Assembly (NCBI RefSeq): GCF_024296685.1
Contig: NZ_CP100763.1
Coordinates: 558,001 to 622,000 of the forward strand
Direction: 5' to 3'
DNA: 64,000 nucleotides
From: Natrinema marinum
GTDB lineage: Archaea > Halobacteriota > Halobacteria > Halobacteriales > Natrialbaceae
Position 1 is the stretch's first letter. The number at the start of each line of letters is the position of its first letter. Positions 11,896 through 20,641 of the stretch are shown here, in pieces. Made by a program: the position numbers and the translations under genes. The notes beneath the pieces were generated by a model. That model searched no databases. It worked only from the letters and a program-made list of their open reading frames with translations, and was not told the DNA's origin.

Positions 11896-11973
11896 GGACA
11901 GACGGCCCCTCGGAGCGGCGCATTCGATAGCCGGACCAAACCGGCTTTGATCGCCGAGCGGGTAGTCGCGAGT

Positions 11974-12576
11974 ATGACTGAACGCGGGGGACTCGAGCGG
12001 CGACGACTGCTCGGCGCGCTCGGAGCGGGGGCGGCCGTCGGGATCGCGGGCTGTCTCGGCGGGTCCGGGGACGACACCGATGACTCCGGCACCGACGACG
12101 AGCGGGCGCAAGTGTACGAACCGACCCACGAGGGCGTCGACGAGGGACCGATCGAGTTCACCGAGAACCAGCGCTGTGCGGTCTGTGGCATGACGCCGAC
12201 CGACTACTTCGGGAAGGGCCAACTCGTCCACGAAAACGGACTCGCGGCGGTCTTCGACTCCCCGGGCTGTCTGTTCGCCTACAAGGTTTCGTCGACGCCC
12301 GACTCACCGGTCGCCGACGCGTGGACGACTGACTACGAAACCGGTGACCTCATCGACGCGACCGCGGCGTACTTCGTGCTGATCACCGACGAGCAGGCCG
12401 CCGAGGACCCGATGGGGATCGATCCGCGCCCGTTCGCTGCGCGCGAGGACGCGACGGCCTTCCTCGAGGAGTGGACCGCCGAGGACCTGACCGAGGACGA
12501 TATCATCGTCGGGCTCGAGTCCGTCGACATGGATATCGCGGCGATCTACCGCGGTAGTCGGCTGCCGATCGAGTAG
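11974..12576 (+). CDS. NosL-like lipoprotein (copper-binding family)
   Basis: 200 residues from the ATG at 11974. The N-terminus ERRRLLGALGAGAAVGIAGCLGG contains a twin-arginine-like stretch and a lipobox with Cys27, followed by an Asp/Thr-rich linker, so it is an exported lipoprotein. The core ENQRCAVCGMTPTDYFGKGQLVHENG has the CxxCGM motif of NosL, a Cu(I) chaperone for nitrous oxide reductase. No nosZ/D/F/Y is in the window, so here it could serve another copper protein, conceivably the cupredoxin 1 kb downstream; that link is only proximity. The family call is good. Confidence 0.82.
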   Translation: MTERGGLERRRLLGALGAGAAVGIAGCLGGSGDDTDDSGTDDERAQVYEPTHEGVDEGPIEFTENQRCAVCGMTPTDYFGKGQLVHENGLAAVFDSPGCLFAYKVSSTPDSPVADAWTTDYETGDLIDATAAYFVLITDEQAAEDPMGIDPRPFAAREDATAFLEEWTAEDLTEDDIIVGLESVDMDIAAIYRGSRLPIE

Positions 12577-13590: not shown

Positions 13591-14727
13591 CTACTGGACG
13601 TTTATTTCGCCGATGGCGTCGAGCTGTGCCTGGTCGAGATAGACGCCCATCTCCTCTCTGGCGACGAACTCGACGGTCTGTTCCCCGCCCGCCTGATTCA
13701 AGAAGTCGGACCGGACGTAGGTGGTCAACTCGTTGGTATCGCCGCCGCTGGCGATCACGAGGTTGTGGCCGGGCAGCGGCTGGTAGTGTCGATTCTCGCC
13801 GGACGGCTGCGCGCGCCCGATCGTGTTCTCCCACTCGATCGCGTAGGTCTCGCCGGCCTCGAGTTCCAGCGTCGGGTTCGCCTGATCGGCGATGCTATCG
13901 GGCGAGACGCCGACCCACTGACCGTCCTCGAGGCGCATCCCGAAGGTGGTCGTCGGTTCGCCGGGTTCGATCTGCGGCAGCGTGACGGTCACTTCCTGAT
14001 CGCCGCCGTCGATCGTCACCGTCTCGGAGACCTGTTCGTAGCCGTACGTCCAGGCCTGGAGTTCGTACTCGCCGTTTCCGAGTAAGTCGAACCGGGCCAG
14101 CGCCTGCTGGTCTTCGGCCTGCTCGGCTGGATCCGGTCGCGCGGCGACGTTCGAGAACGAGTGCCTGTCGTCGAGGGTGACCTCGGCGCCGAGGGGGTCG
14201 CCGCCCTCGGTCTCGACGTGGACCACCAGCTCGTGGGACTCGTCGGGGCTAATCAGTTCGATCGGGCCGCGCATTTGGGCCGGATGGGGCGCACAGAAGT
14301 ACTCCGACATCTCCTCGGAGGCTGTGAACTCGAGGGCGACGGTTTCTCCCTGTTCGGACACCGTCTCCGTGGACTCGAGGATCTCGCCCTGATCGCCGAC
14401 CGCGCTGCCGCTGGTGATGTTGAAGTTGTGCGTCGCGCCGTCGCCGTTCGTCCAGATGACCCGGTGCTGTTCGCCTTCGATCAGTCGCAGCGGCGGGTTC
14501 GAGACGGCGTCGATCTCGTGGGGGGCGACCCCCATCCAGCCGCCGACGATACCGAGCAGTGAGAACGTCCGCCCCTCGCCGTCGTTCTGTACGGCCGGGA
14601 GCGTGACGTCGACCGCGTCGCGGTACGCGCCTGCGGTGCCGGCGGCCGCGGCCGTTCCTGTCAGCGCCGCCGTCCCCTTCAGCACGCCGCGACGCGAAAC
14701 GTCGCGTGAACGTTGATCGTTCGTCAT
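13591..14727 (-). CDS. Tat-exported cupredoxin with duplicated blue-copper domain
   Basis: 378 residues from the ATG at 14727. A twin-arginine signal (SRRGVLKGTAALTGTAAAAG, residues 11-30) predicts folded export. Domain 1 (about 54-160) is a plastocyanin-like fold with a complete type 1 copper site: His100 (THNF), Cys145, His148 and Met152 (CAPHPAQM). A carboxypeptidase-regulatory-like beta domain follows (165-250). Domain 3 (255-378) repeats domain 1, sharing WxGVxPxxI, NPxLxLxxGE and HNxxIASG/ITSG, but the Cys/His/Met loop is gone (YLDQAQLDAIGEI), so it should not bind copper this way. It is last in the operon with the PQQ dehydrogenase and is a natural electron acceptor for it. A longer in-frame reading upstream runs through the dehydrogenase gene and is not real. 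Confidence 0.88.
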   Translation of the reverse strand: MTNDQRSRDVSRRGVLKGTAALTGTAAAAGTAGAYRDAVDVTLPAVQNDGEGRTFSLLGIVGGWMGVAPHEIDAVSNPPLRLIEGEQHRVIWTNGDGATHNFNITSGSAVGDQGEILESTETVSEQGETVALEFTASEEMSEYFCAPHPAQMRGPIELISPDESHELVVHVETEGGDPLGAEVTLDDRHSFSNVAARPDPAEQAEDQQALARFDLLGNGEYELQAWTYGYEQVSETVTIDGGDQEVTVTLPQIEPGEPTTTFGMRLEDGQWVGVSPDSIADQANPTLELEAGETYAIEWENTIGRAQPSGENRHYQPLPGHNLVIASGGDTNELTTYVRSDFLNQAGGEQTVEFVAREEMGVYLDQAQLDAIGEINVQ

Positions 14728-14756
14728 GGTTTGTGTGTCAATCGTGTTGGTGTCTG

Positions 14757-16466
14757 TTAGCCGCTCATCGAGAACACGGCGAGCGTGTCGCCGCGCGGTC
14801 CCTGGCGGAGCCAGCCGCTGCCGCCGACCTGGACGGCGACGTACTGTCTCTCCGTGCCGGGGTCGTACCAGCTCATCGGCGAGGCGCTGATCGGCACGTC
14901 GAAGCCGTACTGCCAGAGCCGTTCGCCGGTCTCGCCGTCGTACGCGATGAGGTTCCCGTTCTGGGTCCCGTTGAACACGAGTCCCGTCGCCGTCGACAGC
15001 GAGCCGCCCCACATGTACCGTCGCTCCTCGCTCTCGATCCAGTCGCGCCAGACGCGCTCGCCCGTCGCGGGATCGACCGCTGCGAACGCGGTCATGTTCC
15101 CGTTCCACTCGTCGGGCATCTCGGAGGCCGGATCGTCCAGCCCGCCGCCCCAGTACGGATCGCCCTCGGAGAACTCCTCGTACCGCCAGTAGAGGTCCTG
15201 CGGGAAGTTCTGGTGGATGACGTACACCAACTCCGTCGCCGGGTTGTACGACGGCGGCTGCCAGTCGTTGCCCCCGGGCGCGCCGGGAACGAACGGGACC
15301 CGCTCGTCCTCGCTGATGTGAGGGATCATCCGCCACATGTTGATGTGCTGGCAGATCTCCTGGCTGCGCTCGCGGAGCCGTCCCGAGTCGGCGTCGAGCA
15401 GGAACACCCAGCCGGCCTTGTCGGAGCCGACGACGATGTCGCGCTGGCCGTCCGCGCCGGTCACGTCGCGGAGTAACACCCGCGGTGCGATGGCGTCGTA
15501 GTCCCAGACGTCGTGGGGGCTGCCCTGGTACCCCCACTGCATCTCACCGTTCTCGAGATCCATCGCGATCGTCCCGCAGGTGGGGAAGTTCGGTCCCGGT
15601 CGGACCGTCCCGTCGAAGTCCGGCCCGGGGTTCGCGACCGCCGTGTAGAGCACGTCTCGCTCCTCGTCGATCGTCGGCGTCATCCAGGTCGTGCCACAGC
15701 CGTGTTCTCGGCTCGCGCCGATCCACTCGTCCTCGGGGAGCGTCTCGCTCTGCCACTGGATCTCGCCGCTTTCGGCGTCTACGGCGGCCATGAATCCGAC
15801 GACGCCGTACTCGCCGCCGGCGCTGCCCGTGTAGATCGTCCCGTCGCGGATCACCGGCGCCCACGTCGCGGAGTAGCCCTCCTCGTGGTCGGCGGTGGAC
15901 GTGTACCAGACCTCCTCGCCGGAGTAGCGGTCCAGCGCGACGACGCCCGAGTCGAGCGTCGTCATGTACACCTTGTCGCCGTAGACGGCGGCCCCGCGGT
16001 TGTTATCGTCACAGCAGAGTTCGACCCCGATCGGCGGCGCGTAGGTGTAGCTCCAGAGGACCTCGCCCGCGCGGGGGTCGATCGCCTTGATGTGGTTCGG
16101 CCCGTTCGTCTGGTACATGATCGGCGGGTCGCCCGGTACCACGATGGGCGTTCCCTCCATGCTCGAGCCGGTCCCGACCGACAGCTCGTACTCGAGCTCG
16201 AGGTCGCCGACGTTCTCGGGCGTGATGACGTCGGCGGTGGTGGCCCGGTGCTGTTCGTAGTTCCCGCCGTACATGAGCCACGCCTCTGGGTCGTCCCCCG
16301 AGTTGCTCAGCATCTCCTGCGTGACGTCGTCGTTCTGAATGCGACCGATGTCGTGCTGTTCGGTCACCGAGTCTTCGGGGCCGCCGACCAGCGTATAGCC
16401 GTCCTCGATCTCTTTCAGTTCGATGTCGCGTGCGGCCTGTACCGCCCTGTCGTTGCGTAGTGCCAT
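14757..16466 (-). CDS. PQQ-dependent (quinoprotein) alcohol dehydrogenase, lanthanide-type site
   Basis: 569 residues, an eight-bladed quinoprotein propeller. Tryptophan-docking repeats (AxDxxxGxxxW) are visible at 128, 177, 228, 301, 463 and 508. Active-site features are the adjacent cysteines Cys151-Cys152 that form the disulfide ring over PQQ, Glu219 (GGEYGV), Asn279 (VANPGP), catalytic Asp322 and a second Asp324 (HDVWDYD). Calcium enzymes of this family have Ala or Ser at the last position; lanthanide enzymes (XoxF, PedH) have Asp. It would oxidise primary alcohols. No signal peptide is seen (starts MALRNDRAVQAARDIELKE), which is odd for a family that is periplasmic in bacteria. No C-terminal cytochrome domain. 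A strong ribosome site lies upstream, inside the end of the preceding gene. Substrate unknown. Confidence 0.9.
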   Translation of the reverse strand: MALRNDRAVQAARDIELKEIEDGYTLVGGPEDSVTEQHDIGRIQNDDVTQEMLSNSGDDPEAWLMYGGNYEQHRATTADVITPENVGDLELEYELSVGTGSSMEGTPIVVPGDPPIMYQTNGPNHIKAIDPRAGEVLWSYTYAPPIGVELCCDDNNRGAAVYGDKVYMTTLDSGVVALDRYSGEEVWYTSTADHEEGYSATWAPVIRDGTIYTGSAGGEYGVVGFMAAVDAESGEIQWQSETLPEDEWIGASREHGCGTTWMTPTIDEERDVLYTAVANPGPDFDGTVRPGPNFPTCGTIAMDLENGEMQWGYQGSPHDVWDYDAIAPRVLLRDVTGADGQRDIVVGSDKAGWVFLLDADSGRLRERSQEICQHINMWRMIPHISEDERVPFVPGAPGGNDWQPPSYNPATELVYVIHQNFPQDLYWRYEEFSEGDPYWGGGLDDPASEMPDEWNGNMTAFAAVDPATGERVWRDWIESEERRYMWGGSLSTATGLVFNGTQNGNLIAYDGETGERLWQYGFDVPISASPMSWYDPGTERQYVAVQVGGSGWLRQGPRGDTLAVFSMSG

Positions 16467-16470
16467 GCGT

Positions 16471-16479
16471 GATCACCTC
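16471..16479 (-). promoter_or_regulatory. Strong Shine-Dalgarno site of the PQQ dehydrogenase
   Basis: On the minus strand GAGGTGATC precedes the ATG at 16466 by 4 nt. It matches the anti-Shine-Dalgarno end of archaeal 16S rRNA over nine bases. The stop codon of the upstream gene (TGA, 16473-16475) lies within this site, so translation of the two genes is probably coupled. Confidence 0.75.
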
Positions 16480-17375
16480 AGTTCGCTCGGCGCGCGCACG
16501 TCGTCCGTGATGTAGAAGACGTCGTGCAGGATGTCTTCCTGGCTGACGATCTGTACCGCCGTCCCCGCGGTGAGCGCGGCCGTCAACTGTTCGTCCGTGA
16601 ACCGGCCGTCCGCGGCCAGATCGCGGGCCGCCGTCGCCGACACGAACAGCCCGCCCAGCATCGCCTTCACGTCCCTGACCGCGTCGTCGAGGATCGTGTC
16701 GGTGACCATTACCTCGTTCTGCCAGAGGTGCCTGTCGAGCCCGCGGATCCAGAGCAAGGCCCCGCCCATCGCGCGGCGGTGCAGCGGCGGGACGTTCTCG
16801 GTGTCGAACTCGACGCCCCCCGGGATCTGGTTCGATGGAACCCAGCGCGCCAGCCGTTCGTCGTTGTTCGCGACGGCGATCAGCAGCGCCGTTTTCTCCG
16901 CCTCGTCGAAGCCGACGTCGTCGAGCGCCGACGACAGCGGCTCCGCCAGAACCAGTTCGCGCGCCGTCTCCTCGATGTGGTCGGCCGTGAATCGGGGCAG
17001 GTTCCCGTCGAGGCTCTCGAAGAAGCCCACGTCGACCAGGTGGTCGTAGAGGCGCCAGCCCGGCTCAGCGACCGCCGTATACAGTCCCTGTGGCTCGTCC
17101 GGTACCCCCTCGGCTCGCACGTCCGGTAACCGTCTGATCTGCTCCGCGACGTTCTCCCGTTCCCGCTCGAGCAACTCGGGATCGAGTCGTTTCTCGAGGG
17201 CGGCCCGAATCGCCTCGCCCCGGGAGGCGAACGACGAGTCGGACCGCGGTTCGATCTGTCCCGCCAGCCGCGTCCACGTCACGTCCCCGTCTCCCGGCGT
17301 CTCGACGCCGAGTGTCGTCGCCAGATCGCGTCGTTCCGCGGCCGTCGTGTCTACTGCAGTTGATATGTGTGGCAT
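16473..17375 (-). CDS. Unassigned protein, first gene of the PQQ dehydrogenase operon
   Basis: 300 residues from the ATG at 17375; an ATG five codons earlier (17390, giving MCCGIMPHIS) is also possible. I do not recognise the family. It is soluble, mostly helical in appearance, Asp/Glu/Arg-rich, with no signal peptide, no Cys or CxxC motif beyond the alternative start, and no nucleotide-binding motif. Distinctive stretches are SRGEAIRAALEKRLDPELLERERENVAEQIRRLPDV (cut here for length), PLHRRAMGGALLWIRGLD, and a helical C-terminus ILHDVFYITDD. It ends inside the ribosome site of the PQQ dehydrogenase, so the products are likely made together. Plausible roles are a maturation or assembly factor, an accessory subunit or a membrane-docking partner. 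These are guesses from context. Confidence 0.78.
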   Translation of the reverse strand: MPHISTAVDTTAAERRDLATTLGVETPGDGDVTWTRLAGQIEPRSDSSFASRGEAIRAALEKRLDPELLERERENVAEQIRRLPDVRAEGVPDEPQGLYTAVAEPGWRLYDHLVDVGFFESLDGNLPRFTADHIEETARELVLAEPLSSALDDVGFDEAEKTALLIAVANNDERLARWVPSNQIPGGVEFDTENVPPLHRRAMGGALLWIRGLDRHLWQNEVMVTDTILDDAVRDVKAMLGGLFVSATAARDLAADGRFTDEQLTAALTAGTAVQIVSQEDILHDVFYITDDVRAPSELR

Positions 17376-17427
17376 GATACCACAACACATAAAACGCCAC
17401 CGGGACTTCTGTTAATGCTTATCAATG

Positions 17428-17641: not shown

Positions 17642-18499
17642 GTGATCGATCTCCGCGATACGCTCGCGCGACTCGAGCGGCCCGAGTACATCGGTGAGAA
17701 CCGGTGTACCCCGTGTACCGCGGTAAACGTCGTGCTCTCGTTCGCCCTCGCGGCCGCGATCGGCGCAGCAGCGTCGCCGTTCGCCGGCGCGCTCGCGCTC
17801 GGCGTCTCGCTGGTGCTGGTCCGACTCCGGGGGTATCTGATCCCGGGGACGCCGACGCTTACCCGGCGATATCTTCCCGAGCCCGTCCTCGAGCGCTTCG
17901 GGAAATCGCCCGCGAGCGCGCCGACGGTCGAGACGGTGACGCCCGCCGAACTCGCGTCCGTCCTGACCGCCGCCGATGTCGCGACCGACGGGACGGACGA
18001 GCTTCGGCTAACCCCGTCGTTTCGCGCCCGGTGGGACGACCGGCTCTCGAGCGACGGCGCGACGACTCCGGGGAGGGACGCGGTGCGGTCGGCCCTCGGC
18101 GTCGACGACGTCGATCGACTCGGCGATGCGTCGTTCGAACTCGAGGGCCGGCAGCGCGTCGGATGGGTGTCGCCCGCGGCGCTCGCGGCCGACGCCGCCG
18201 CGGCGGCCGAACTCGAGGATCGGATCGACGGCTGGGACCGCCTCGAGGCCGACGAGCGTCGCGACCTCCTGACGGGGCTGCGACTGCTACGAGATCGCTG
18301 TCCGGCCTGCAGCGGCCCGGTGGTCGCGACGACCGAGCGCCTCGAGCACTGCTGTCGGCGACCCCGAATCGCCGTCCGGGCTGCCTGCGACGCGTGCGAC
18401 CGGCCGCTGGTCGATCTCGTCGTCGCCGAGTCGATGGCGGCGACGTGGCTCGAGCTGGCGGGAGTGGGGACTGCGGACGGCTCGAGCGCTGCCGGCTGA
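17642..18499 (+). CDS. Membrane protein with Cys-pair (zinc-ribbon-like) motifs, unknown function
   Basis: 285 residues from a GTG at 17642. I do not recognise the family beyond its being haloarchaeal-looking. The start has CTPC (Cys22, Cys25) directly before two hydrophobic segments (about 27-60). The middle is soluble, with helical and acidic stretches, and the end has CPAC, a CC pair and CDAC within about 45 residues, together a possible four-Cys metal-binding module. This suggests a membrane-tethered protein whose soluble part binds zinc or an iron-sulfur cluster. It lies between the PQQ operon (divergent) and the formate-dehydrogenase-like gene (convergent, 15 bp apart). Function unknown. 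Confidence 0.72.
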   Translation: MIDLRDTLARLERPEYIGENRCTPCTAVNVVLSFALAAAIGAAASPFAGALALGVSLVLVRLRGYLIPGTPTLTRRYLPEPVLERFGKSPASAPTVETVTPAELASVLTAADVATDGTDELRLTPSFRARWDDRLSSDGATTPGRDAVRSALGVDDVDRLGDASFELEGRQRVGWVSPAALAADAAAAAELEDRIDGWDRLEADERRDLLTGLRLLRDRCPACSGPVVATTERLEHCCRRPRIAVRAACDACDRPLVDLVVAESMAATWLELAGVGTADGSSAAG

Positions 18500-18514: not shown

Positions 18515-20641
18515 TCAGTCGTCAGCGCTCGCGTCGGCGGGTTCGATCCCGACGTCGATCTCCGCGGCGGCGGCCTTGTACTCGGGGATCTTCGCTCGCT
18601 CGTCGAGGACGTGGTTCGTGAGTCGGTTGGCCGAGGCGGCCGCGAAGTGCGGCGTCGTCCAGACGACGCCCTCCTTGGTGTCCTCGGTGACGTGGGCCTC
18701 GAGCGTGATCTCGCCGCGCCGCGAGCGCAGCCGGACCGTCTCGCCGTCTTCGATGCCGTAGCGCTCGGCGTCGGCGGGGTGGACATCGACGAAGTTCTCC
18801 GGGTGCTGGCGGTTGAGCGTCGGCGACCGCGTGCTCATCGTTCCGGTGTTGTAGTGCTCCTCGAGCCGCGCGGTGGTGAGGATCAGCGGATACTCGTCAT
18901 CGGGCGTCTCGGCCGGCGGCTGGTGTTCGACGCCCTCGATGTGGCCCAGCCCGCTCTCGGTGTCGAACGACTCCTCGTAGAGGAAGGGGTCGCCCTCGTC
19001 GCCGGGCTCGTAGCAGGGCCAGTGGAGCCCCTCCTCGCCCAGCAGGTCGTAGGTCATCCCGTGGTAGCTCGGACAGACCTGCCGGAGCTCCTCGAAGACG
19101 TCTTCGGGATCGTCGAAGTCGAAACCCGAATCGAACAGCCGCCGCCCGACCTCGCTCACGATCTCGAGGTCGTGTTTCGTGTTCTCGTGGACTTTCTCGA
19201 CGCCGCGCATGCGCTGGACGCGCCGGTCGGTGTTGGTGACGGTGCCCCCGCGCTCGGCCCAGGTCGTCGCCGGCAAGAGCACGTCGGCGAACTCGGCGGT
19301 CTCGGTCGGGAAGATATCCTGCACGACCACGAACTCTAACTCCGCGAGCCGCTCGGCGACGCTGTTGGCGTCGGGTTCGCTCATCACGGGGTTCTCGCCC
19401 ATGACGTACAGCCCCTTGATCGAGTCGCCGGCCTCGTAGGAGATCTCGACGTTCGTCAGGCCCGGCTCGTCGGGGATTTCGAAGCCCCAGACCTCCTCGA
19501 CCGATTCGCGGGCCTCGTCGTCGTCGACCAGCTGGTAGCCCGGCAGGACGTTCGGCATCGCGCCGACGTCACAGGTCCCCTGAACGTTGTTCTGCCCGCG
19601 CAGCGGGTTGACCCCGGTTCCGGGCCGCCCGAGGTTGCCCGTGATCAGCGCCAGATTGATCTCGTTTTGCACGTTGTCGACGCCGCAGGCGTGCTGGCTC
19701 ATTCCCATCCCGGTGAAGATGGCGGCGTTGTCCGCCGTGGCGTACTTTTCGGCGGCCAACTCGATCGCCTCGAGCGCGACGCCACACTCCTCGGCCGCCG
19801 CTTCCGTATCGAAGTCCTCGAGCGTCTCCTTCAGGTCCTCGAAGCCCTCGGTGCGTTCCGCGACGAACTCTTCGTCGACCCAGCCGTCTTCGGGGTTCTC
19901 CTCGTGGTGCTCGAGAATCGTCTTCAGGACGATATTGAGCAGCGGGATGTCGGTCCCGGGGTTCAACTGGAGGTGCTGGTGGCGCTCGGTGTCGTCGATC
20001 TGGAACGACCGGGTCGTCTTGTTCGCATGCGGGTCGACCTGAACGACGGTCGCGCCCTCGAGGACGGCCTGCCGGAAGTACTGGCTGTTGGCGATCGGGT
20101 GCTGTTCGCCCGGATTCGCCCCCTGGATCCAGAAGAGGTCGGCCTCCTCGCGGAGGTCGCGCATGCTGTTGGTCATCGCCCCCGCACCGAGGCTGGTCCG
20201 CAGCGCCCAGACGGTCGAGGCGTGGCACATCCGCGTGCAGTTGTCGACGTTGTTGGTGCCGTACCGGCGGGCCAGCTTCTGGAGGAGGTAGTTCTCCTCG
20301 TTCATCGTCTTCGAAGAGCCGAAAAAGCCCATCGCGTCCGGGCCGTACGCCTCGCGGATGCGCTCTAGTTCGCCGACGACGTACTCGTAGGCCTCCTCCC
20401 AGGTGGCCTCGCGGAACTCACCGTCCTCCCTGATCTGGGGCTCGGTGAGCCGGTCCTCGTGGTCGACGACCTCCGTCGCCGCGCCGCCTTTGATGCAGAT
20501 GCGGCCCTCGTTGACCGGCGCGTCGCCCCACGGCATGAATCGGACATCGCCCGGTTCCTCGCCCTGCTGTACCTTGATGCCGCAGCCGACGCCGCAGTAC
20601 GGACAGATCGTCTTGACTGGCTCTTGCTGGTCACTTGACAT
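18515..20641 (-). CDS. fdhF: Formate dehydrogenase-like molybdopterin oxidoreductase, catalytic subunit
   Basis: 708 residues, close to the single-subunit FdhF/FdhA length. N-terminal 4Fe-4S ligands are Cys13, Cys16, Cys20 and Cys49 (CPYCGVGC...ICIKG). The Mo/W ligand position is Cys139 followed by His140 in CTRMCHAS, so this is the cysteine form and not selenocysteine. Conserved NPLRGQNNVQG, the TMSTRSPTLN stretch and the C-terminal molydopterin-dinucleotide-binding domain (about 590-700) are present. No beta/gamma subunit or FdhD is adjacent, and mobA and yqeC lie 1-2 kb away. It would oxidise formate and pass electrons to an unlinked partner, but related enzymes reduce other substrates, so formate specificity is likely but not certain. 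No signal peptide; cytoplasmic. Confidence 0.88.
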   Translation of the reverse strand: MSSDQQEPVKTICPYCGVGCGIKVQQGEEPGDVRFMPWGDAPVNEGRICIKGGAATEVVDHEDRLTEPQIREDGEFREATWEEAYEYVVGELERIREAYGPDAMGFFGSSKTMNEENYLLQKLARRYGTNNVDNCTRMCHASTVWALRTSLGAGAMTNSMRDLREEADLFWIQGANPGEQHPIANSQYFRQAVLEGATVVQVDPHANKTTRSFQIDDTERHQHLQLNPGTDIPLLNIVLKTILEHHEENPEDGWVDEEFVAERTEGFEDLKETLEDFDTEAAAEECGVALEAIELAAEKYATADNAAIFTGMGMSQHACGVDNVQNEINLALITGNLGRPGTGVNPLRGQNNVQGTCDVGAMPNVLPGYQLVDDDEARESVEEVWGFEIPDEPGLTNVEISYEAGDSIKGLYVMGENPVMSEPDANSVAERLAELEFVVVQDIFPTETAEFADVLLPATTWAERGGTVTNTDRRVQRMRGVEKVHENTKHDLEIVSEVGRRLFDSGFDFDDPEDVFEELRQVCPSYHGMTYDLLGEEGLHWPCYEPGDEGDPFLYEESFDTESGLGHIEGVEHQPPAETPDDEYPLILTTARLEEHYNTGTMSTRSPTLNRQHPENFVDVHPADAERYGIEDGETVRLRSRRGEITLEAHVTEDTKEGVVWTTPHFAAASANRLTNHVLDERAKIPEYKAAAAEIDVGIEPADASADD

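Follow-up and report, generated by a model that had tools for sequence, protein, structure and literature searches.

Gene organization of the locus

The analyzed DNA (hereafter called the window) is a stretch of 64,000 nucleotides of the genome of Natrinema marinum. On its minus strand, three open reading frames follow each other in the order P1, DH and CU, each of them residing where a previous inspection of the letters without database searches (the sequence-only reading) had placed it. P1 (17390-16473) codes for a predicted all-helical protein of 305 amino acids belonging to no known family, the partner of DH (16466-14757), a PQQ-type alcohol dehydrogenase of 569 amino acids without a Tat signal. 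CU (14727-13591) encodes a Tat-exported cupredoxin of 378 amino acids, which begins with the Tat start RRGVLKGTAALTG. The sequence comprising the P1 stop and the DH start, CGAACTGAGGTGATCACGCATGG, leaves an intergenic gap of 6 nt. Here, the near-perfect haloarchaeal ribosome-binding site GAGGTGATCA (16467..16481, minus strand) contains the P1 stop codon TGA, an overlap suggesting that P1 and DH are translationally coupled. DH and CU are separated by exactly 29 nt. Both the overlap and the short gap, on which the assumption of a single transcription unit had been based, were thus confirmed, and this assumption is supported. As most homologues of P1 use a start corresponding to position 17375 (MPHIS; 300 amino acids), this may also be the true start of the window gene rather than 17390. 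The closest named relative of the locus was found in Natrinema gelatinilyticum, whose P1 is 89% identical.

P1 and DH are a conserved gene pair

A profile search for P1 gave hits in 54 of the 125 family genomes and, at the level of the class Halobacteria, in 70 of 391. When DH was searched for separately (E <= 1e-25), 69 of the 391 genomes were found, the same ones as with P1 except for G065, where both genes had been truncated by one deletion that joined their remnants. Hence, P1 and DH are either both present or both absent throughout the 391 genomes (69 with both, one with decayed remnants), and the group is widespread among haloarchaea, occurring in about one in six sampled genomes. In 85 out of 85 loci with distinct DH sequences, P1 immediately preceded DH and had the same orientation, mostly at a distance of a few nucleotides, which in window-type loci was mostly 6 nt. 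Since these loci had been collected by means of P1, independent support for the pairing comes from the DH search, whose places adjoin those of the P1 search. The conservation of the pair far exceeds chance. When 84,980 species genomes were scanned with a single short pattern, P1 was detected in Halobacteria only; distant relatives could have been missed by such a pattern. The window genome itself contains a second, divergent P1-DH pair (C1:1326.7-1328.9 kb).

Among the loci are those of the window-type clade a (24 loci), its sister clade b (31 loci) and a paralogous clade c. The idea that all three genes are conserved together held for P1 and DH, whereas CU is absent from the 31 loci of clade b. 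Thus, the pair P1-DH is the fixed core, and CU is a clade-specific companion.

DH is a divergent quinoprotein alcohol dehydrogenase

DH matched PF01011 (PQQ-dependent alcohol dehydrogenase superfamily) with 166.5 bits, well over the gathering cut-off of 26.7. Together with a DYD motif of the lanthanide type, this match bore out the previous assignment of the second gene to the PQQ-type dehydrogenases. The score of 370.4 bits obtained with TIGR03075 (PQQ-dependent methanol/ethanol family) is below the curated cut-off of 480, and judged by these scores DH is a divergent relative of that family which we do not file as a member. A further match, to the acido-empty-quinoprotein group A (TIGR04528), reached 281 bits, also below its curated cut-off (650).

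The counterparts of the residues with which bacterial enzymes bind PQQ and metal were identified as Cys151-Cys152, Arg157, Glu219, Trp261, Asn279, the catalytic Asp322, Asp324 (the second Asp of DYD) and Lys350. All of them are kept in every aligned DH of the clades a and b, while clade c retained the metal ligands and lacks the Cys pair. The additional Asp, which in the window lies within HDVWDYD, is present in every aligned haloarchaeal DH. By sequence and fold, PedH and other alcohol dehydrogenases are the nearest solved structures; the best Foldseek match was PedH (6zcv, E 7e-35), 4mae and 1flg were also among the top ones, and XoxF likewise ranked among the top matches in both respects. 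The Asp of the DYD motif is possibly the sign of a lanthanide site. As the DxD motif also exists in membrane glucose dehydrogenases working with Ca or Mg (PMC11996626), it is not decisive for the metal on its own.

P1 is predicted to be a helical partner of DH

In agreement with the sequence-only reading, to which the first gene had looked like nothing known, P1 matched no Pfam or NCBIfam model. Its AlphaFold model (pLDDT 91) is one all-helical protein with 13 helices over about 300 residues. Attempts were made to assign this model to a known fold and were abandoned, as Foldseek gave no match with E <= 0.001 in the PDB and the VIA-align Z values of 8 or less are common for helical bundles. The P1 profile retrieved a single chance-level match (E 1.4) from the PDB sequences.

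Because the frames of P1 and DH are in register, the two proteins could be modeled as the read-through fusion P1-W-S-R-DH. The model, in which the two chains are tethered, was calculated with a shallow alignment lacking the row of L168 (a plasmid record) and judged on its pTM of 0.79 over 872 residues. Since DH makes up 65% of the fusion, we estimated that pTM would not exceed about 0.70 if DH alone were placed confidently. The model suggests that P1 docks onto DH, a notion which is supported by these values and not proven by them.

Tat signals are found on P1 and not on DH

With a simple pattern test, no Tat signal was detected on DH in any of the 85 distinct loci, a feature that had escaped the sequence-only reading. 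P1, by contrast, carries such a signal in 24 of these loci, all deep branches included (e.g., EDRREFLKALGVVAGGGVAG), and the Pfam model TAT_signal matched eight of 32 P1 members. In these loci, P1 therefore behaves like the subunit of a Tat hitchhiker system, for which the gamma subunit of FAD-glucose dehydrogenase is a precedent (PMC6719666). The function of P1, which the sequence-only reading had left blank, is best read as that of an all-helical Tat-escort subunit, and we regard this role as probable.

The window P1 has lost the Tat signal. Its N-terminus can be aligned with the signals of P1 relatives that possess one, yet the hydrophobic region is missing, and the twin arginines are not conserved in the clades a and b. 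An upstream in-frame start providing a Tat signal was ruled out by a stop codon nine codons before the ATG. On a DH tree with a bacterial root, two losses are the simplest account of the P1 signals: the ancestor of the clades a and b would have lost the signal once, and a subgroup of clade c a second time. The root is uncertain because of long branches and the quick method applied. With two losses on P1 and five switches between presence and absence of CU, the tree offers too few events for a statistical test of whether one signal was swapped for the other. In the window clade, CU is the only product of the unit with an export signal. As the window P1 has none, export of DH on the Tat signal of CU is a guess.

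CU is a candidate electron acceptor

CU matched PF00127 (plastocyanin/azurin-type cupredoxins) with 41.6 bits (cut-off 21.2). In this protein, the copper domain is followed by a linker domain in the middle and by a cupredoxin-like domain at the C-terminus (about 257-364). All ligands for type-1 copper (H100, C145, H148 and M152) reside in the N-terminal domain; where this domain reads YFCAPHPAQM, the C-terminal one shows YLDQAQLD, which provides neither the Cys nor the Met ligand. Thus, the second domain postulated for this cupredoxin does exist, whereas the protein has one copper site and not two.

Every one of the 24 distinct window-type loci had CU immediately after DH and in the same orientation. 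A cupredoxin gene was also located beside DH on the same strand in four of the six loci of that clade c subgroup which lost the P1 signal, and in clade c with Tat-bearing P1 there is a cupredoxin fused to a domain of the glucose/sorbosone dehydrogenase type (GSDH), which is convergent to DH. Nearly all of these DH-adjacent cupredoxins possess the His, Cys, His and Met ligands. A neighboring cytochrome c gene as in the XoxF, ExaF and PedH systems was not found; the cupredoxin occurs there instead. The proposal that a blue copper protein occupies the place of cytochrome c is therefore tenable for the window-type loci and does not extend to clade b, and CU is a plausible electron acceptor of DH.

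Some further observations concern copper proteins and their surroundings. At the paralogous locus L050 of the window genome (G000:C1:1321000-1334000), P1-DH lies beside a Tat-exported cupredoxin. In the related locus L167 (7921-9885), the cupredoxin forms one protein with a glucose/sorbosone dehydrogenase domain, so that a further enzyme of the quinoprotein type is joined there to a copper protein. The product of a NosL-domain gene near CU (11947-12576 in the window) has a start of the Tat type as well as a lipobox-like Cys and possibly handles copper. Finally, CU homologues (e.g., L097:10635-12023 and L099:10646-12157) end in tails of repeated GNET-type sequences; these may be N-glycosylation sites, which would be consistent with an extracellular place.

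PQQ synthesis genes were not recognized

The lack of PQQ synthesis genes in the window, already remarked upon by the sequence-only reading, was verified and extended to the whole genome and, for PqqC, to the 391 Halobacteria genomes. PqqC was not detected at the cut-off in these or in the 125 family genomes. PqqE gave only matches well below the cut-off in the 125 family genomes, as did PqqB (seven genomes). The same searches revealed strong matches for all three proteins on pSymB of S. meliloti, which served as positive control. One genome (G268) harbors a full-length match to a PqqB-like metallo-hydrolase (113.7 bits, sub-threshold), whose gene adjoins those of a propeller-repeat protein and of an exchanger-like protein (L176; G268:C3:221000-236000). 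We rejected this gene as evidence for PQQ synthesis because PqqC was not found in that genome. Either PQQ is taken up or its pathway is not recognizable; uptake from outside is probable.

Neighboring genes hint at substrate and metal supply

In the neighborhood of P1-DH-CU, the minus strand of the window contains a gene for a formate dehydrogenase alpha subunit (18515..20641; TIGR01591, 738 bits, over the cut-off). A homologue was found near DH in eight of the 24 window-type loci and in two of three loci of the next lineage; it might catalyze a downstream C1 step. Near DH, nine window-type loci encode a zinc enzyme related to formaldehyde dehydrogenase, which scored below the cut-off of that family, and 12 contain HbpS-like genes. 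The neighborhood suggests, and does not prove, small alcohols such as methanol as substrates. In 24 of the 85 loci, which belong to four clades, genes for Na/Ca exchangers (cluster c8) occur in several arrangements at no more than 6.5 kb from DH, while about 1.4% would be expected. Genomes of the family possessing P1 have about 1.5 more exchangers, a figure corrected for genome size and not for kinship. The exchangers possibly supply DH with metal. In the clades a and b, genes for NMT1-type ABC transporters are frequent near DH. Another gene, whose product belongs to no known family and shows the motif ENRCxPC and a hydrophobic segment (17642-18499 in the window; cluster c5), was observed in 19 of the 85 loci. 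In the clades a and b it often lies at 6.5 kb or less from P1-DH; it may simply be common in haloarchaea.

The sister clade may comprise cytoplasmic enzymes

None of the 31 loci of clade b (e.g., L168:4684-12911 and L175) contains a cupredoxin gene near DH or a Tat signal on P1 or DH. The neighbors are a [2Fe-2S] ferredoxin (Fer, 24 loci), a CDC48-type AAA ATPase (23 loci) and a protein of approximately 170 amino acids of no known family (22 loci). Since these dehydrogenases lack both cupredoxin and Tat signal and are encoded beside genes of the cytoplasmic type, they may act inside the cell, and P1-DH of clade b may be a candidate cytoplasmic quinoprotein.

Discussion

Most likely, DH is an extracellular, possibly lanthanide-using alcohol dehydrogenase which passes its electrons to a cupredoxin and obtains PQQ from outside. 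In this view, P1 and DH would be produced from one message and form a stable heterodimer, as the fusion model suggests. DH would belong to the methanol/ethanol dehydrogenase superfamily, depend on PQQ and metal, and possess a metal site of the lanthanide type. The ancestral P1 would have carried folded DH out through Tat by its twin-arginine signal, as does the gamma subunit of FAD-glucose dehydrogenase. In the window clade, where P1 lost the signal and the Tat-exported CU is encoded directly downstream of DH, a P1-DH-CU assembly would most likely leave the cell on the signal of CU. Outside, DH would reduce CU, which would substitute for cytochrome c in feeding the respiratory chain, and PQQ, not made by recognizable Pqq enzymes, would probably be taken up. 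Gene order, co-occurrence, the conserved active site, the distribution of Tat signals and the absence of PqqC at the cut-off are observations, while complex formation, the export route, electron transfer, metal, substrate and PQQ uptake are inferred from them and from the fusion model. We assign this explanation as a whole a probability of about 0.5. The alcohol-oxidation chain proposed by the sequence-only reading is accordingly plausible and in part supported.

P1 could also be a chaperone that folds DH or inserts its metal or PQQ without being a permanent subunit, the Tat signal then serving for proof-reading. The obligate pairing with DH, the likely translational coupling and the frequent proximity of genes for Na/Ca exchangers and, in clade b, for an AAA ATPase fit such a role. 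However, exported enzymes usually have chaperones that do not leave the cytoplasm, whereas many P1 relatives carry Tat signals, and we consider this role unlikely. Less easily dismissed, yet still rather doubtful, is a cytoplasmic location of the window-clade P1-DH as well, with the Tat signal lost on moving inside, PQQ imported, perhaps by the neighboring NMT1-type transporters, and CU linked to DH without contacting it. Such a location would agree with the missing signals and unconserved twin arginines of the clades a and b, with the neighbors of clade b and its lack of cupredoxin, and with the NMT1-type genes in both clades. It is disfavored by a Tat-bearing CU directly after DH in every window-type locus and by the retained vicinal Cys pair, which is typical of exported quinoproteins. 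Moreover, the PQQ enzymes known to date act outside the cytoplasm. A broader scenario, that P1-DH founded a cytoplasmic quinoprotein branch once the Tat signal of P1 was lost, appears improbable to us. These enzymes would use PQQ brought in from outside together with a lanthanide or calcium, in clade b possibly with help of the CDC48-type AAA ATPase and a link to the 2Fe-2S ferredoxin. If the scenario were true, this would be the first cytoplasmic PQQ alcohol dehydrogenase; to our knowledge, none has been known before.

The preferred reading of an exported alcohol dehydrogenase also has to be compared with other views of the catalytic site. DH might use calcium and oxidize sugars or other polyols instead of small alcohols with a lanthanide. 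The occurrence of DxD in Ca- or Mg-dependent membrane glucose dehydrogenases (PMC11996626) and the surplus of Na/Ca exchanger genes near DH (24 of 85 loci versus about 1.4% expected) speak for this, while the high rank of PedH and XoxF among the sequence and fold matches and the genes for the formaldehyde-dehydrogenase-like zinc enzyme and formate dehydrogenase near window-type DH speak against it; on balance we think it somewhat unlikely. Very improbable, finally, is an 'empty' quinoprotein with another role and no bound PQQ. Although PqqC did not exceed its cut-off in 391 genomes, PqqE and PqqB remained sub-threshold and a secondary match to TIGR04528 was obtained (281 of 650 bits), the tested residues contacting PQQ and metal are conserved throughout the clades a and b, and TIGR03075 gave the higher score (370 bits).

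Quinoprotein alcohol dehydrogenases have been described as rare in archaea, and most studies of the lanthanide-dependent ones concern bacteria. The haloarchaeal group combines a lanthanide motif with an obligate, so far undescribed partner family, a copper protein for cytochrome c and the lack of recognizable PQQ synthesis. New are the obligate P1 family and the history of its Tat signals, the failure to recognize PQQ synthesis and the signal-less, maybe cytoplasmic sister clade. If the preferred explanation is true, salt-loving archaea would gain a route to alcohols such as methanol, rare-earth biology would be extended to a new archaeal class, and the natural losses of Tat signals would offer a test bed for the export of signal-less enzymes.

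Comparison with known systems

A literature search in a library of openly accessible articles yielded no work on a PQQ alcohol dehydrogenase from haloarchaea. DH shares the propeller fold, the metal ligands Glu-Asn-Asp, the additional Asp (DYD or DFD) and the vicinal Cys pair with PedH, ExaF and XoxF of Pseudomonas and Methylobacterium. It differs from them by forming its own haloarchaeal clade with about 30-35% identity to the bacterial relatives, by its obligate partner P1, by the absence of an own Tat signal and of a cytochrome c neighbor, and by a score below the TIGR03075 cut-off. Marine heterotrophic Thaumarchaeota possess PQQ dehydrogenases (PMC7300363) which resemble DH in being archaeal, in the DYD motif of some members and in the lack of cytochrome c, and for which a blue copper acceptor has been proposed. 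They are unlike DH in that they have no Cys pair, bear signal peptides in most cases and come from genomes encoding a PQQ synthase; the passages considered make no mention of a P1-type partner.

P1 resembles the gamma subunit of the FAD-glucose dehydrogenase BcGDH (PMC6719666) and the small subunits of the Gluconate_2-dh3 and FAD-SLDH type as a small helical subunit encoded beside a signal-less catalytic subunit. A Tat signal as on BcGDH gamma is carried by 24 of the 85 P1 proteins and has been lost in the window clade. P1 is distinguished by its size (about 300 residues and 13 helices versus five helices) and by its partner, a quinoprotein. It did not match the hitchhiker families FAD-SLDH (PF12318) and Gluconate_2-dh3 (PF13618) over any cut-off; one of 32 P1 members reached FAD-SLDH at E 0.09, and the window P1 gave no match. 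CU, in turn, has the Tat export and the type-1 copper ligands in common with haloarchaeal halocyanins and plastocyanin-like proteins, and it differs from them by an additional cupredoxin-like domain devoid of copper ligands and by being tied to a quinoprotein operon.
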